Positions 8,201 through 63,761 of a stretch of 64,000 bases of DNA are shown here, in pieces. This DNA comes from Xanthostigma xanthostigma. Lineage: Eukaryota > Arthropoda > Insecta > Raphidioptera > Raphidiidae. Each line of letters begins with the position of its first letter. Position 1 is the first letter of the stretch. The position numbers were made by a program, and so were the translations under genes. The stretch spans positions 47,627,665 to 47,691,664 of the forward strand of contig OY754468.1 of the NCBI GenBank assembly GCA_963575645.1. Reading direction: 5' to 3'. The notes below the pieces were generated by a model. It had not been told where the DNA came from and searched no databases. It saw nothing but the letters and a program-made list of their open reading frames with translations.

Positions 8201-9713
8201 GTCCAACACGACTTGATGGTATTCAATATGTTCGGACAGTTCTTCTAGAGTAGGAGCTACTTCCGATGGATTCGGATCAACTTCCATTAACCTTGGCCAC
8301 ACTCTTTTTCGCAATTCATCTAAAGAAATTATATTTTTTTGTTTGGATCATTAAGAAATTCTTCGCGTTACTAGCGGAAAAATGAACCAGTGGATTCGAA
8401 TTTTTGACGTGATAACGTCTTATAAATTGATGAATCACGTCAAAATAAAAAGATGAAACACCGGCTGCATGCACGAAAAAGTGTAACGTTCCTAACGTTA
8501 CTAAGTGAGCGACTAGAATGCCTTCGGTAGTTTTGAGGCAGATATCATCAACCGATTGAGATGAAAATTTGTATACACGTTTAGTTTGAATGACAATGCA
8601 TGGTTAGCTGTGTGACGTCACTCTAAATCCAATATGGCGGACTTCTAAAGATGGCGGACTAATTTTATTATGCTTTCCTACAATATGGGTATGAAATGAA
8701 AGGGCTTGCTGAGAATAACTCGAAAAATAAAGTGACGTCACTCTAAATCCAATATGGCGGACTTCTAAAGATGGCGGATAATTTTATTATGCTTTCCTAC
8801 AATATGGGTATCAAATGAAAGGGCTTGCTGAGAATAACTCAAAAAATAAAGTGACGTCACTCTAAATTCAATATAGCGGACTTCTAAAGATGGCGGACTA
8901 AGTTTTTGACGTGATAACGTCTTATAAACCAGCTGCACGCACGAAAAAGTGTAACGTTCCGCCTGACCCTGTTGCGTGCAAGCGAGAGCGCAGTAATGTA
9001 TTATTAAATATGATATTCGAGCGGAATACGTTATCACGTAAAACTATCGTCCGTAAACCGACTTTACAGACAACCAATGTTTTTTTATACAAATATCTTA
9101 TTACAGCCAGTCGAAACTTATGTGATCTTGACAGGATACAATCACATAGCGTCTCGCGTTGTATGCAGACGTCAATTCATATTCAACGCCATTTTGAGAC
9201 CCGCTGCGTCATTGTTTCCCGTCGCGATCGCAAATTTCGAAAGGCTGTTTTAAAGCAACCCATTGATCCGTTTTTACACTACTTACTAAACAAAAAACAC
9301 GTGTCAATTTACCATTTATGAGACCATGGTCAGTTTTAGCTAGCCTTCGCCAACACTCTAAATTCGTATCGGGATTATTTAATGCTTTTTCGATTTCTTC
9401 AATCTTCTCTTTTTCAAGAGCAGTTTCTGGAACTAAAGTACAAAAATGAAATTGCGACTTTAAAATATATTATCATATCACGACAAAGCAATTTACTTTT
9501 TTCAAAATTTAATTCATTCTCGTTTAATACTATCGCCGAATTGTTTTCTGATGAAGTTACTTGTAATTTTGTTGAAACATTTATTGAATCATCAATTGAT
9601 GAAGCATCACTCCCTGTTTCAAAATCACTGGTATTTTTCTCACGATCAAATTCTATATTGCTATTAATTGTATTTTCAGTATCCATAATTGTATGTTGTA
9701 ATTTAATATCCAA
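5296..9713 (-). CDS. TBC1D20: TBC1 domain family member 20, Rab GTPase-activating protein
   Basis: Five coding exons on the minus strand: 9497-9713, 9313-9432, 7881-8319, 7064-7390, 5296-5515. All introns are GT-AG with matching phases (1,1,2,2), giving 440 residues; vertebrate TBC1D20 is about 400. The TBC domain spans roughly residues 110-345. It has the arginine finger (VVLDVNRS, Arg155), the glutamine finger (YYQGYHD, Gln194) and the family signatures FLLVVGE, STNHLRE, FALPWYLTWFGH and RHVVRLYD. After a charged Arg/Lys/Glu linker the last exon encodes a C-terminal hydrophobic tail (AFKLLAFTATATALF) that would anchor it in the ER membrane, as in the family. Known role: GAP for Rab1/Rab18 in ER-Golgi traffic and lipid-droplet biology. 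The N-terminus is longer than in vertebrates; Met10 is an alternative start. Intron 4 holds a 580-bp hairpin element and intron 2 holds tandem repeats. Divergent from the gene at 10008. Confidence 0.92.
5520..5760. repeat. GGGTGTCCCATTTTAAA repeat fragment in TBC1D20 intron 4
   Basis: The stretch ACCGGGTGTCCCATTTTAA, followed by GGAACACCTTGAATAAC, resembles a dispersed insect repeat whose ends read GGGTGTCCC. It lies immediately upstream of the last TBC1D20 exon and creates a spurious longer ORF that reads into the exon. Boundaries are not resolved. Confidence 0.4.
6195..6777. mobile_element. long palindromic element, copy 1 (TBC1D20 intron 4)
   Basis: Nearly the whole 580 bp is one imperfect hairpin: arms begin AATAGATAGCGGAT and end ATCCGCAATCTATTAAATAT. 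Internal paired blocks include CGTGGAAAACGCCGTAAAAA, TATTTCGCTCCAAAACCTA and AGCTTAGAACATTTTACATT. A second copy is at 49109-49673. TA-rich flanks suggest a TA-targeting (Tc1/mariner-like) non-autonomous element; that class is an inference. Confidence 0.8.
8398..8480 (+). mobile_element. partial TTTTGACGTGATAACG element (TBC1D20 intron 2)
   Basis: Contains TTTTGACGTGATAACGTC, CTTATAAATTGATGAA and CGGCTGCATGCACG, matching the left part of the family seen at 8904-9078, 20704-20954 and elsewhere; the right part is missing. Confidence 0.65.
8612..8902 (+). repeat. tandem repeat of about 120 bp (TBC1D20 intron 2)
   Basis: The block GTGACGTCACTCTAAATCCA followed by ATGGCGGACTTCTAAAGATG starts at 8612, 8732 and 8851, i.e. 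periods of 120 and 119 bp, about 2.4 copies. Each unit also contains CTTTCCTACAATATGGGTAT and AAAGGGCTTGCTGAGAATAA. Copies differ by only a few bases, so the duplication is recent. Confidence 0.9.
8904..9078 (+). mobile_element. TTTTGACGTGATAACG element (TBC1D20 intron 2)
   Basis: Runs from TTTTGACGTGATAACGTC to CTTTACAGACAACCAAT, with the inverted core ACGTTATCACGTAAAAC near its right end. It is one of seven copies in the window and has no coding capacity. Confidence 0.8.
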
Positions 9714-18996: not shown

Positions 18997-21900
18997 TTAT
19001 AACTCATCGTGTAATAATTCGTTAGTTCCGTTTATAAACTGTTGAAACATCGGATGCTGTTTTACATGTTTTGCTGCTTTTTCAATCAGTCGCATGAATT
19101 CTTTAACGTCGAAGGAGTAATTTGTAAATTTTGCGTGAGCTCCTCCGTCTGGATGATGACCCTACAAATTTTCAAATTGTTTAAAGTGACAATTTTCTTA
19201 TTTCAATATATTATTTAATGGGAATTAGACTTTTGAAAAAAAAATAATTATTGATTTTTTTATTGTATTTTAAAACTTTATTATAAATAATATTGATAAT
19301 CGATGCGAAAAACTTTCAAAAAACTTTTTAAAATTAATTATAAGCAATTTAAAATTGATAAAATATTTAAAAAAATCACGTGACTGCAAACGCACTAAAA
19401 TTGTTTTTGACAGTTGTGACGTCATAATGTTAAAATGTATATACGCAGTATACTATCAATGGCTTCTACATGTATTATTATAATAATATAAATTACCATT
19501 ATGACGTCACATTATGTTCGGAAAATGGCGCGTTCTCGGAACTGGGTACAAAAATTTATTTTTAATTTGATATAACTTTTGAATTATAACGAAAATAAAA
19601 AAAAGAAAAATAGTTTTGTTATAAAACTTATATACGATCTTTCCATTTATGACAAAAAAAAATTTCATTCAAAATCCCAATTATAAAACGGTCGAATAAA
19701 AAAAAAATTTGGTGACTGATGATGAGATACTGTTTTAATAACTTGAGCGGTATGAAATAGAGTAAACGAAAAAATAACTAAACTAGCGACAAATATTGGT
19801 TAATAATAAAATCCAGAACGGGCTTACAAACATTGGGTTGTGAATAATCCATTTGAGATATTCAAATAATAGTTGGGTGACTAAATTACTAAGTGAGCGA
19901 CTAAATTACTAAATGAGCGACTAAATTACTAAGTGAGCGACTAGAATGCCTTTGGTAATTTTGAAGCAGTTATCTTCTTTTGTTTTTACTTTTTAATTTT
20001 TTTTTTCACTTTGAGACTACAACTTAAAACTCACATTTTCATGAAGATTGAAAACCACCGCTTTCTTTGATAAAGGGGTATGCGAATTGTCTCGCAGTGA
20101 AACGGGAAGGGGCAAATGTGGAGTTTTTAAAAAACACAATTCCGGGGTGAACGATAATGGGGTATGCGAATTAAATAGTTAATTGTTTGAATAGAACTGC
20201 GTTTTCTAAAAAATGTATATTTAATTGACAGTCAATTAAATATATATTTTTTAGAAAACGCAGTTCTATTCAAACAATTAACTATTAACAAAATGCCGCT
20301 CAGAATAAATAAATCATTTGCCAAATTTTGAAAAAAATGCAGGACGTAACGTTGACACTCAAACAAATATTAGGTCGCTCAAATATTATGAAGGTTCCCA
20401 TTTTGTATTTTAAGTAACTCAAATGGATGTTTGTAAGTTGCTGTTCTGTTGATTTCTCGTCACGCGCAGTCAGTCGCTCACTTAGTAATACAGTAACCCA
20501 AATTGATTATTTTTGTCACCCAAAATTGTAATTTACAATCACTCGTTTAAATACTATCCTTATTTAATTACCTCATCTTCTTGAATAAGTGCTGTGCTGT
20601 TCTCCCATGTTATGTATTTAACTCCTCTTAATCTTGATAAATCTAAATAACAATTTGGATCTTCACAGTTGTATCTGCAATTATCAAAATATTGTAAAAA
20701 AAAATTGGTTGTCTGTAAAGTCGGTTTACGGACGATAGTTTTACGTGATAATGTCATAAAGAAACATTGATGAACTCTCTGACGTCACGCGAGAAGAGAG
20801 GGAAATGCGTACAAGCCGACGCTTGGGCCGATCGTGCCTCTCTATCGCTTATACCGCGCTCTCGCTTGCACGCTCAAGCTCAGGCGGAACGTGACACTTT
20901 TTCGTGCGTGCAGCTGGTGTTTCATCAATTTATAAGACGTTATCACGTCAAAAACATTTCTTTTAATTTGAATCGGTATCTCCGATTTATCAAAATCGAT
21001 TACTTACAGTTCAAAAACAACTGCCCAATCGGGCAAAAACAAAAGATGCGTTAAACCAGCTCCGTGTATTCCAATAAATATATCCGTGTTTCGACTCACT
21101 TCGAGTTGTTTCTTAAAACTAATATTTCTATTAAAAATAGCCTTTTTAACTTTATAATTTTTATTTTTCTTTAAAGCTTTCAACAAATCGTCTTCGTTTA
21201 ATATTCGTCTGTATTTCGTATCTCTGGACAAAAGTGTTATTCGTATTTTAGAATCTTTACGTTTATATAAAGGTATTTGTAAACGGTGTAAAATATGTTT
21301 AGAAAACGCGTGGAACAATCCACTTTTTTCACAGCCAGGTATCTGCAAAAACAATGTAAATGTTTCTTTAGTTTTGAATAAATTAGAAAAACCAATTGCC
21401 ATTAGACCATATAACGTGGGAAGCTGATGTTAAATTAAAAAGATATAGTTTAAAAAAAACTAAAAAATACGCTTTATATCGAACTAAAAAGTAAAAAATA
21501 TTTTTTTTAAAATAAGCTTAAAACAATAATGAATAAAAAATACAAGTATTATTGTGAAAAAAGCGTGGGGCGCTCGATGTACGAAAATGTGAAACAAAGC
21601 GCCCCACGCTTTTTTCACAATAATACTAGTATTTTTTATTCATTATTGTTTTAAGCTTATTTTAAAAAAATTATTTTTTACTTTTTAGTTCGATATACCT
21701 AAAGCGTGTTTTTTACTTTTTTTTAAACTACATATATTTATTTTTCACTTTTTAGTTTGATATGAAGCGTGTTTTTTAGTTTTTTTTAAACTATATTTAT
21801 TTTCCACTTTTTAATTCGATTTATTGTCAAAAATTTGCCGAAAAAAAAAATTTTTTTTTCGGCGTGGACGGGATTAGAACCCACGACCCGTGATTCCGAG

Positions 21901-40639: not shown

Positions 40640-41023
40640 TTAGTTTGGGTTGTAAATATGTGTGTATGTATGTCCGTAACTATGTAACTATGTATGTATG
40701 TCCGTAACGGAATCTTTGAGCATAATTTTCACCAATTTCCCGAAGTCTGATTAATTTGAAACTTTGCATACGTATCAAGGACCGATGACAATGCAATAAT
40801 TTGATAACAGTTTCCCATTATCCTTATTAGGACCCCCAGGATTAATAAATTCTTTTATAGATCCTCTGTAGTAAACGCTTTATTTTCACCAATTTCCCGA
40901 AGTCTGATTAATTTGAAACTTTGCATACGTATCAAGGACCGATGACAATGCAATAATTTGATAACAGTTTCCCATTATCCTTATTAGGACCCCCAGGATT
41001 AATAAATTCTTTTATAGATCCTC
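40640..41023 (+). repeat. near-perfect tandem duplication, 157-bp period
   Basis: The segment beginning TTTTCACCAATTTCCCGAAG at 40726 restarts at 40883 and both run to TTTTATAGATCCTC with no difference that I can see over about 140 bp. The preceding 40660-40715 is a GTATGTATGTCCGTAACTAT-type microsatellite. Confidence 0.92.
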
Positions 41024-59984: not shown

Positions 59985-60743
59985 AAATTTATGGTAATTA
60001 TACACTTTCACGGTCACCTGGTTTTTTGGCTCTAGAAAATCTAAAAATAGATGGATTTCAATTATCTCGGTCTCAAAAAATTCCATTTTACGGCGGATTT
60101 ATGAAAAAAATTAGTTCACCCCGGAATTACAATTCGCATACCTGTTTATCGTTCACCCCGGAATTGTTTTTTTAAAAACTCCACATTTGCCCCTTCCCGT
60201 TTCACTGCGAGACAATTCGCATACCCCTTTATCGTTCACCCCGGAATTACAATTCGCATACCCCTTTATCGTTCACTCCGGAATTACAATTCGCATACCT
60301 GTTTATCGTTCACCCCGGAATTGTTTTTTTAAAAACTCCACATTTGCCCCTTCCCGTTTCACTGCGAGACAATTCGCATACCCCTTTATCGTTCACCCCG
60401 GAATTACAATTCGCATACCCCTTTATCGTTCACTCCGGAATTACAATTCGCATACCCGTTTATCGTTCACCCCGAAATTACAATTCGCATACCCGTTTAT
60501 CGTTCACCCCGGAATTGACGTCAGAAACAGTTATAAAGAATTATATGTAGAAAGTCAATTTTTTTTGCATTTAAAGTCATGAAACTGTGAGAAATATTGA
60601 TTTTTTCAATTTTCGTATTTTTTTCCATAAATCCGCCATAAAAACGAAGATTTAAAAAAAAATTCATCGAAATCGGATGATTTTTCGATTTTCTAGAGCC
60701 AAAAAACCAGGTGACCGTGAAAGTGTATAATTACCAAATTTAT
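59985..60743. mobile_element. hAT-like TIR element with internal minisatellite, copy 1
   Basis: 59993-60735 has 49-bp perfect inverted ends beginning GGTAATTATACACTTTCACG and continuing GTCACCTGGTTTTTTGGCTC. AAATTTAT is duplicated on both sides (59985-59992, 60736-60743). Inside, 60110-60515 is a minisatellite (units GTTCACCCCGGAATTACAAT plus TCGCATACCCCTTTATC, 37 bp), with a larger 157-bp period marked by CTCCACATTTGCCCCTTCCC at 60179 and 60336. Confidence 0.93.
60187..60515 (-). repeat. minisatellite array inside copy 1
   Basis: 37-bp unit (in inverse AATTCCGGGGTGAACGATAA then AGGGGTATGCGAATTGT) and a 46-bp spacer block (CTCGCAGTGAAACGGGAAGG ... TTTTTAAAAA), grouped as three units plus spacer (157 bp). 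Variant bases distinguish AAAGGGG from AAACGGG units. Confidence 0.93.
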
Positions 60744-60949
60744 TTTAATTTCATTTAATTAATTAAAAAAAAATTATTAGTTAAAAAAAGTATAAATACT
60801 GCTTTTTATCGACATCATGAAATTTGAACACAACATTCATCTCGGTAAACTAAGATGAATGTGTGTACTCATGTTCTCTTCCCCATTTGTTCTTTTACAC
60901 CAGAGAACATACACTTTTACACCCGGGTGAAACCGGGCGGGACCGCTAG

Positions 60950-61286
60950 TTATAAATAGACAGCGCTACATGATTGGAACTAAAAGATTTAGTAAAATCC
61001 CATCTGACGTCGTTAATATTAACTAAAATTAGCTGTCATTATCTACCATAGACTTATTTATTATTGATAATTTATTTTGAAAATAGCACAAGATTTTTCT
61101 ATAAAATTTATGAACTTTAATTATCTACACAAATGAAATGTTCAAAATTTAAAAATCAGCGTTTTATATAGTAAATTTCGTTAATATCTAAGCATTAAAT
61201 AGTGTCTTTAAAACTGCATAACATACTCCTTGTGAAAATTAGGTGTGTGAAAATCGAAATTTTGATATGAAAAAACATTTCTAGAA
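60950..61286. other. RBM18 upstream region
   Basis: Unannotated AT-rich DNA between a Helitron-like element and the proposed first RBM18 codon. The promoter and 5' UTR should be here; no core element recognised. Confidence 0.4.
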
Positions 61287-63761
61287 ATGAAGACAGACTT
61301 GGTAAATAAATAAACAATTTATATTGCTAGTGGATTCGATAACATTGGTGTTTAATTTTGCAGCAGTCAGAAAATGCCGAAACTACAGAAACTACAAATC
61401 CAGAGAAGAGATTATGGATAGGAAATTTGGATCCTAGAATTAATGAGTAAGTTTTTCTCACTTGTATAAACTTTATCATTAAAATAATCATTTGATATAA
61501 TTAAACGTCAAGGCTGTTTTTATGTTTACAATATCACACTGACCTTGTCAAATTGCAAATCAAATTATACAAACTTGCATTACTTACTTTTAACTGATAT
61601 TTATTTTTTTTTTACCGGTATCAATTACTGAAACTAACGCAAATATATGGTAAAATCGAAAAATTCGATTTACTTTTTTATCGTAATGGACCGATGGCAG
61701 GACTGCCCAGAGGATACGCTTTTGTCACGTATGCTAAGCAAACCGATGCTGTAACTGCTAGAGAAGCACTCGACAATAAACTAGTTGGAACAAAACACAT
61801 CGTTGTCAAATGGGCTCACAGTGTCAATAACGTAAGTTCCATTTTGACGTGATAACGTCTTATAAATTGATGAAACACCAGCTGCACGCACGAAAAAGTG
61901 TACCGTTCCGCCTGACCCTGTGCGTGCAAGCAGTATAAGCGATAGAGAGTCGGTAAAAATATAGTTTGACAGCTACTAAAATTTAGGTTATGTATTATTA
62001 AATATGATATTCGAGCGGAATACGTTATCACGTAAAACTATCGTCCGTAAACCGACTTTACAGACAAACAATTTTTTTTTACAACATTTTGCAGGTATTT
62101 ATGCATTTCTTTTTTTGTAAAGGTTATTATACACTTTCGCGATCACCTGGTTTTTTGGCTCTAAAAAATCGAAAAATCATCCGAATTCAATGAAGTTTTT
62201 TTTAAAATCTTCGTTTTTATGGCGGATTTATGGAAAAAAATACGAAAATTGAAAAAATCAATATTTCTCACAGTTTCATGACTTTAAATGCAAAAAAAAA
62301 TTGACTTTCTACATATAATTCTTTATAACTGTTTCTGACGTCAATTCCGGGGTGAACGATAAACGGGTATGCGAATTGTAATTTCGGGGTGAACGATAAA
62401 CGGGTATGCGAATTGTAATTCCGGAGTGAACGATAAAGGGGTATGCGAATTGTCTCGCAGTGAAACGGGAAGGGGCAAATGTGGAGTTTTTAAAAAAACA
62501 ACTCCGGGGTGAACGATAAACGGGTATGCGAATTGTAATTCCGGGGTGAACGATAAAGGGGTATGCGAATTGTAATTCCGGGGTGAACGATAAAGGGGTA
62601 TGCGAATTGTAATTCCGGGGTGAACGATAAAGGGGTATGCGAATTGTCTCGCAGTGAAACGGGAAGGGGCAAATGTGGAGTTTTTAAAAAAACAACTCCG
62701 GGGTGAACGATAAACGGGTATGCGAATTGTAATTCCGGGGTGAACGATAAAGGGGTATGCGAATTGTAATTCCGGGGTGAACGATAAAGGGGTATGCGAA
62801 TTGTAATTCCGGGGTGAACGATAAAGGGGTATGCGAATTGTCTCGCAGTGAAACGGGAAGGGGCAAATGTGGAGTTTTTAAAAAAACAACTCCGGAGTGA
62901 ACGATAAACGGGTATGCGAATTGTAATTCCGGGGTGAACGATAAACGGGTATGCGAATTGTAATTTCGGGGTGAACGATAAACGGGTATGCGAATTGTAA
63001 TTCCGGAGTGAACGATAAAGGGGTATGCGAATTGTCTCGCAGTGAAACGGGAAGGGGCAAATGTGGAGTTTTTAAAAAAACAACTCCGGGGTGAACGATA
63101 AACGGGTATGCGAATTGTAATTCCGGGGTGAACGATAAAGGGGTATGCGAATTGTAATTCCGGGGTGAACGATAAAGGGGTATGAGAATTGTAATTCCGG
63201 GGTGAACGATAAAGGGGTATGCGAATTGTCTCGCAGTGAAACGGGAAGGGGCAAATGTGGAGTTTTTAAAAAAACAACTCCGGAGTGAACGATAAACGGG
63301 TATGCGAATTGTAATTCCGGGGTGAACTAATTTTTTTCATAAATCCGCCGTAAAATGGAACTTTTTGAGACCGAGATCATTGAAATCCATCTATTTTTCG
63401 ATTTTCTAGAGCCAAAAAACTAGGTGACCGTGAAAGTGTATAATTACCTTTGTAAATGTGTCACTTATTTATTTTCTAGGAGGACGCTGACAAACTAAAG
63501 CCGTGTTTAAATATTCCTGTATTAGCAGGAGCTAAAGAAGATGAAAAGAAACCGAGTAGAGAAATGCAAATAAAAGCGATAGAGGCAAAATTAAAAACTA
63601 TGGAATACACAGATTTGACGGAGGAGTTGGCTGTAAACAAAACAACGCGACAACAAACTTCCACTTCAACATATAAACAAATGCAAACAAAATCTCAATG
63701 GAGACATCACAATAACGCAAATCATCCCTATCGAAAAGACAATCGAAGATACAGAAAATAA
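61287..63761 (+). CDS. RBM18: RNA-binding protein 18 (single RRM)
   Basis: Four coding exons: 61287-61301 (MKTDL, proposed), 61364-61446, 61618-61831, 63480-63761; phases 0,2,0; 197 residues (human 190). The RRM spans about 18-105: RLWIGNLDPRINE (RNP2), YQLLKLTQIYGKIEKFD, GLPRGYAFVTY (RNP1), then HIVVKWAHS. The C-terminal IKAIEAKLKTME helix is shared with vertebrate RBM18, followed by a basic, Gln/Asn-rich tail. Role known only as a nucleic-acid-binding family member. Odd points: intron 2 has a normal donor (GA|GTAAGT) but the only frame-compatible acceptor reads TTTTACCG|G, CG in place of AG, and no AG occurs for 80 bp around it. Intron 3 carries two transposable elements. The 5-codon first exon is inferred from a good donor (TTG|GTAAAT) and homology at the N-terminus. 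AATAAA at 63809-63814. Confidence 0.88.
61842..62072 (+). mobile_element. TTTTGACGTGATAACG element (RBM18 intron 3)
   Basis: From TTTTGACGTGATAACGTC to CTTTACAGACAAACAAT, starting 11 bp after the exon 3 donor. It is followed by a decoy acceptor TTTTGCAG at about 62092. Confidence 0.85.
62114..63456. mobile_element. hAT-like TIR element with internal minisatellite, copy 2 (RBM18 intron 3)
   Basis: 62122-63448 begins GGTTATTATACACTTTCGCG and ends GTGAAAGTGTATAATTACC. TTTGTAAA is duplicated on both sides (62114-62121, 63449-63456). The ends match copy 1 at 59993-60735 but the interior is in opposite orientation and the array is much longer. The element ends only 31 bp before RBM18 exon 4. Confidence 0.93.
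62338..63328 (+). repeat. higher-order minisatellite, 194-bp period
   Basis: 37-bp units (AATTCCGGGGTGAACGATAA plus AGGGGTATGCGAATTGT) occur in groups of four, separated by a 46-bp block (CTCGCAGTGAAACGGGAAGG then GGCAAATGTGGAGTTTTTAA). The block AACAACTCCGG returns at exact 194-bp steps (near 62500, 62694, 62888, 63082, 63276). Units within a group carry the same variants across groups (e.g. AAACGGG in the first position), a true higher-order structure. Confidence 0.95.

Follow-up and report, generated by a model that had tools for sequence, protein, structure and literature searches.

Tandem arrays carried by a high-copy non-autonomous Merlin family, with a probable donor repeat and a second carrier family, in Xanthostigma xanthostigma

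The stretch of DNA analysed here, referred to as the window, comprises 64,000 nucleotides of Xanthostigma xanthostigma (Raphidioptera; Raphidiidae; assembly GCA_963575645.1, contig OY754468.1, forward-strand positions 47,627,665 to 47,691,664). It contains two insertions, copies A and B, of a short transposable element whose interior holds a tandem array, and which we assign on the grounds given below to the Merlin superfamily. Each insertion is flanked by a target site duplication (TSD). The arrays are built from a 37-bp unit (U) and a 46-bp insert (H).

59985–59992, no strand: TSD left of copy A, AAATTTAT
59993–60735, minus strand: copy A, a 743-bp non-autonomous Merlin element whose array, on the minus strand, has 8 U + 2 H
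60114–60516, minus strand: tandem array of copy A, 37- and 83-bp steps; period 157 over 60114–60479, period 37 over 60212–60516
60736–60743, no strand: TSD right of copy A, AAATTTAT, perfect 8 bp
62114–62121, no strand: TSD left of copy B, TTTGTAAA
62122–63448, plus strand: copy B, a 1327-bp non-autonomous Merlin element whose array has 20 U + 5 H
62143–62342, plus strand: inner part of the long arm of copy B, 93% identity to the start of L081, a transposase-bearing Merlin copy
62343–63327, plus strand: tandem array within copy B, 5.1 copies of a 194-bp higher-order period, 97%
63449–63456, no strand: TSD right of copy B, TTTGTAAA, perfect 8 bp

Copies A and B lie in opposite orientation, 1.4 kb apart, and outside every open frame of at least 150 amino acids (aa). 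Their termini read GGTAATTATACAC...GTATAATTACC, with GGTTATT at the left end of B. A first-pass annotation, made from the sequence alone, had placed insertions at 59993–60735 and 62122–63448, each with its own perfect 8-bp duplication, and both coordinates and duplications hold. It had described inverted ends of 49 bp; inverted ends are present, but the arms are longer, approximately 122–129 bp, and imperfect (79–83% identity). It had also described arrays of the same 37-bp unit in both copies. Both do hold an array of U, but not a pure 37-bp one, as 37-bp steps are mixed with 83-bp steps consisting of U and H; the periods are 157, 194, and 231 bp. Copy B lies within the inferred intron of a gene encoding an RRM domain (PF00076; region 61365–63700), a gene that presumably resembles RBM18. 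Only about 23 bases separate the right duplication of copy B from the next exon, whose start is read from the sequence, and the insertion may have a bearing on splicing of the RRM gene.

The 623-Mb assembly (28 contigs) was searched with a 35-bp pattern of the element end, allowing up to three mismatches; places were listed for the first 100 matches. The pattern matched 755 times (372 forward and 383 reverse), compared with 0 matches for the reversed-pattern control. Forty-four distinct two-ended copies, 389–1327 bp in length, were recovered. A perfect 8-bp duplication flanks 38 of them and at least 7 of 8 bases agree in 41, whereas pairing the flanks of different copies yielded a duplication in 0 of 1892 cases. 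These two comparisons exclude chance. The identity of the duplication extends to 9 bp in one of the 44 copies, and the 38 perfect duplications are A/T-rich (82%, versus 68% in the flanks). The first-pass annotation had named as support for its view many insertions with 8-bp duplications and arrays of differing length; the genome holds such insertions, the 44 copies displaying 20 array patterns. Being short, numerous, and devoid of a transposase gene, members of the family represented by copies A and B are miniature inverted-repeat transposable elements (MITEs).

Because 21 of the 44 two-ended copies (copy A included) had come from a search with the array-bearing copy A, array content was judged on loci picked by their ends. 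The first 30 listed ends correspond to 23 distinct loci, of which 17 are two-ended and 6 show a single end, and all 23 contain at least one unit. Another 14 loci were taken from listed ends without a listed partner end, for a total of 37 end-picked loci: 26 two-ended, nine composites that are described below, and two truncated. At least one unit is found in 36 of the 37. In this sample, therefore, the ends do not mostly occur without an array, the outcome that the first-pass annotation had named as one that would refute it. At the exception, L065, the unpaired end was followed for 4 kb, and since no partner end, no unit, and no open frame longer than 121 aa was found over that distance, the locus is taken as truncated. 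A further copy, L069, is 990 bp long with AAATTCTG on both sides; its right end has extra bases, so it falls outside the 44-copy pairing.

An empty site is available for copy L074, which sits inside an interspersed repeat. An uninterrupted copy of this repeat lies in the window at 61930–62079. The flanks of L074 match it over 35 bases at 100% and over 123 bases at 99%, the two matches overlapping by the 8 bases AAATATAG, which are present once in the uninterrupted copy.

The termini carry GG at both ends in 41 of the 44 two-ended copies, one end being altered in L026, L076, and L077, and most copies start with GGTAA or GGTTA. In the cited passages of a study of Merlin elements, the superfamily is defined by inverted ends of 24–462 bp that begin with 5'-GG, an 8–9-bp duplication, and a DDE_Tnp_IS1595 transposase domain (PMC8101967). 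The arms of approximately 122–129 bp fall within this length range. Six matches to PF12762 (DDE_Tnp_IS1595, the Merlin transposase domain) were found in the genome. One of them lies in L081 on C10, which begins GGTAATTATACACTTTCACGGTCACC and has the same left end as the family, with the domain about 1 kb inside (38.5 bits; cut-off 27). Over 203 aligned bases, L081 and the copy B arm share 93% identity. The GG ends, the 8-bp duplications, and the PF12762 domain together bring the family within the Merlin definition. On this sequence evidence we classify copies A and B as non-autonomous Merlin elements, and predict that they are mobilised by a Merlin transposase. Two other Merlin genes, L079 (C5) and L080 (C12), lack these ends within the 2.1–2.2 kb fetched. 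L079 contains an open frame of 309 aa (L079:527-1456) with a Merlin transposase domain scoring 46 bits; this frame could belong to another Merlin family or be a host gene.

Nineteen of the 44 two-ended copies share one array pattern, UUUHUUUHU, and are referred to as modal copies. They differ pairwise by a mean of only 1.6% (0.7–2.7%), which suggests that the family spread recently in relative terms, and from their majority sequence by 0.3–1.4%. Units at the same position differ between modal copies by 0.52 of 37 bases. Units at different positions differ by 1.54 of 37 bases within modal copies and by 1.53 between them; units of copy B differ by 1.54 within the copy and by 1.51 from those of modal copies. 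That same-position units differ by 0.52 bases and units at other positions by 1.54 indicates that the arrays were copied as a block. Homogenisation within copies is not seen in the modal copies or in copy B. Across all 44 copies the arrays range from 1 to 20 U, with steps gained and lost. The array thus travels as an inherited block with copy-specific changes in length. Accordingly, the proposal of the first-pass annotation that tandem-repeat DNA is moved as cargo of a DNA transposon stands, with at least one unit in 36 of the 37 end-picked loci and with units that match position by position across the modal copies. No long array without transposon ends was present among the loci read, where the longest array contains 25 U + 12 H; the seeding of large satellite loci by this route is thus a conjecture.

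A third fragment of the array had been noted by the first-pass annotation at 20070–20170. The fragment is real, but it is not a stray piece of array: it is part of a dispersed repeat, repeat X, and lacks Merlin arms.

19679–20559, no strand: stretch of repeat X common to L085 (94%), with an inverted pair at 19873–19902 and 20472–20501; candidate extent only
20069–20172, plus strand: third array fragment and probable seed, two 20-bp unit cores (20069–20088 and 20153–20172) around one H
20174–20286, no strand: palindrome P, complete, 113 bp, near-perfect, adjoining the seed; 84 bp are kept beside the array in four Merlin copies

At least 40 places, the window included, were scored as repeat X, and they match from base 1 to at least base 369 of 381 with 95–100% identity; the scoring keeps the best candidates and could overlook copies that deviate. 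As Merlin arrays have about 104 bp in common with the query, the 1554 first-look candidates of this search do not represent a copy number of X. In L086 and L088, two further copies of X, the left edge is not where the window copy predicts it, which counts against a boundary at 19679. Within 19871–20503, repeat X also has 20-bp tandem steps, GACTAAATTACTAAGTGAGC, near the inverted pair, and palindrome P lies in the middle.

Several Merlin copies retain sequence that the others have lost. L031, L032, L041, L074, and L077 keep the L081-type left part to approximately position 345–360, including about 45 bp that L081 itself lacks, and L033, L071, L073, and L077 keep 42 bp of the right part of the transposase-bearing element. 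In these last four copies the array ends with GCGAATT, followed by 84 bp of palindrome P. The same GCGAATT/P junction occurs in the window copy of X (20172–20286), but there P is complete (113 bp). Since P is intact in X but shortened in Merlin, the simplest assumption is that the sequence passed from X to Merlin, and repeat X looks like the donor of the Merlin array seed.

The nine composite loci (L059–L063, L067, L070, L072, and L075) contain one Merlin end only, inside a larger element bounded by GGTTCTATGACTCTATATCC and GGTAACCGGACTCCATATCC. The inner junctions are identical in all nine, with small sequence variants, while each has its own duplication (8 bp in seven, 9 bp in two). These shared junctions and separate duplications suggest that a Merlin element landed in a member of this second family and lost its right end, and that the composite then spread. 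The composites are 1337–2103 bp in length and hold 13–25 U and 5–12 H, so that approximately 53–70% of each is array. Based on its GG ends and 8–9-bp duplications the second family looks Merlin-like, a candidate superfamily assignment only. Short internal repeats of the type GGACAAAATATCC occur near both of its ends.

Four other explanations were weighed. The 1.4-kb spacing and opposite orientation of copies A and B might point to one segmental duplication or a local rearrangement. The two copies nevertheless have distinct perfect 8-bp duplications and unequal arrays, and comparison of their 200-bp flanks (E up to 1e-10) listed no match between them. A single duplication is therefore barely credible, and A and B are separate transposition events, as the first-pass annotation had it. 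That annotation had called the element hAT-like. hAT elements create an 8-bp target duplication, with which the duplications seen here are equally compatible, and their terminal bases are usually C/TA...G. The A/T-richness of the duplications might also be cited for a hAT element with a minisatellite but decides nothing. The termini GGTAATTATACAC begin with GG, unlike the C/T-A start of hAT, and the transposase joined to the same left end has a DDE_Tnp_IS1595 domain; on these two features the hAT label is rejected, and we consider that reading highly improbable.

The two remaining alternatives concern the array. If array lengths resulted from separate local expansion after each insertion, the array would not be true cargo. 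The variety of patterns, 20 in 44 copies and spanning 1–20 U, fits this idea, but a single pattern in 19 of the 44 copies, with units matching position by position, does not, nor does the finding that units of modal copies and copy B are no more alike within a copy than between copies. We regard local expansion as an improbable source of the arrays; local change adds to block inheritance without replacing it. The array could instead have arisen inside Merlin from the element's own internal sequence, with X acquiring a piece later. The X copies seen have far shorter arrays than the Merlin elements, and the interior of L081 has a 9-base match to the unit, AACGATAAA, near the point at which the long left arm ends, a match that could be due to chance. 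Yet at the junction where X has the full 113 bp of P, L033, L071, L073, and L077 retain just 84 bp, and none of the 40 scored X places, with their matches of 95–100% to the window stretch, contains an expanded array, although the scoring favours such copies. An internal origin is thus unlikely, though it still deserves consideration.

We therefore favour, with a probability of roughly 0.8, a reading in which copies A and B are members of a high-copy, non-autonomous Merlin family that has an array interior and spread recently, the array having come by way of X and having been carried again by a second family. This reading builds on the Merlin ends and duplications, the transposase copy with the same left end, the arrays inherited as blocks, and the second family with its longer array. 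In the proposed course of events a Merlin element would have lost its transposase gene and gained from repeat X two 20-bp cores around H together with part of palindrome P. The 83-bp and 37-bp steps would be due to slippage or unequal exchange involving these cores, and P as well as portions of the arms would later have been deleted. Merlin transposase made elsewhere would then have spread the product of 705–746 bp, and one copy, after inserting into the second family and losing its right end, would have been spread by means of the second-family ends. The array seems to have been passed between at least two, and probably three, element families. That the carriers acted as successive amplifiers, with X providing the seed, Merlin the arrays, and the second GG-ended family longer arrays, is in our estimate slightly better than an even bet.

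Several points weigh against this reading. Growth by slippage is deduced from direct repeats rather than observed. A single shared junction and the completeness of P in X underlie the direction from X to Merlin; the boundaries of X are candidates, and any mobility of X itself is putative. With regard to a transposase source, L081 is a broken copy, with catalytic blocks split over two frames and the right terminus lost, and cannot be the working source. A second copy on C10 is a 99.7% duplicate of L081 over 1720 bp without the left end, and among the four PF12762 loci read, of six, no intact transposase source with these ends was found.

Elsewhere in the window, tandem repeats are present at 8612–8906 (period 119, 2.5 copies, 96%) and at 40725–41023 (period 157 bp, 1.9 copies, 100%). 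Rfam at gathering scores gave no match anywhere in the window.

Transposons that carry tandem repeats, including Merlin elements and MITEs, are already known. According to the cited passages, several Merlin families in Repbase have internal tandem repeats, and Merlin has been proposed to spread proto-satellites (PMC8101967); MITEs with satellites or other tandem repeats are described from Xenopus, bivalves, and Lepidoptera (PMC12628747, PMC9659126). The dinoflagellate Merlin elements of the former study resemble those reported here in their GG ends, 8–9-bp duplications, DDE_Tnp_IS1595 domain, and internal tandem repeats. The families described in the portion cited carry transposase genes, however, whereas here a high-copy non-autonomous family is built around the array and apparent steps of capture and trimming are still visible (PMC8101967). 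Xenopus miDNA4 (Scalvenzi and Pollet) is likewise a MITE with a satellite unit that occurs singly or in variable arrays, and capture of a pre-existing repeat is thought to have taken place. As presented in those excerpts it is a Tc1/mariner element, while the present family is Merlin, probably received its seed from another dispersed repeat, and has had its array re-carried by a second family (PMC12628747, PMC9659126). Xstir/Xmix of Xenopus (Hikosaka and Kawahara) also has tandem repeats on a MITE, but the relevant extracts describe these as thought to come from the MITE interior, while for the present array an outside source is more likely (PMC12628747, PMC9659126). Tetris of Drosophila virilis is, in the sections cited, a DNA transposon that supplies building blocks for tandem arrays; it is a foldback element with repeats in its inverted ends, while here the array lies between the ends (PMC4079207). 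In the Pacific oyster, short satellite-like arrays are spread in a non-autonomous element, but the carriers in the cited part of that account are Helentrons, while the elements described here have ends with 8-bp duplications (PMC7492417).

The source of repeats within transposons is often unclear. What is notable in the present case, without any claim that the literature lacks a comparable series, is the coexistence in one genome of a probable donor, early captured forms, trimmed high-copy forms, and re-carried forms. Because these forms survive and the modal copies differ by only 0.7–2.7%, comparing copies and individuals would directly test both the sequence of events and how fast arrays change after a jump.

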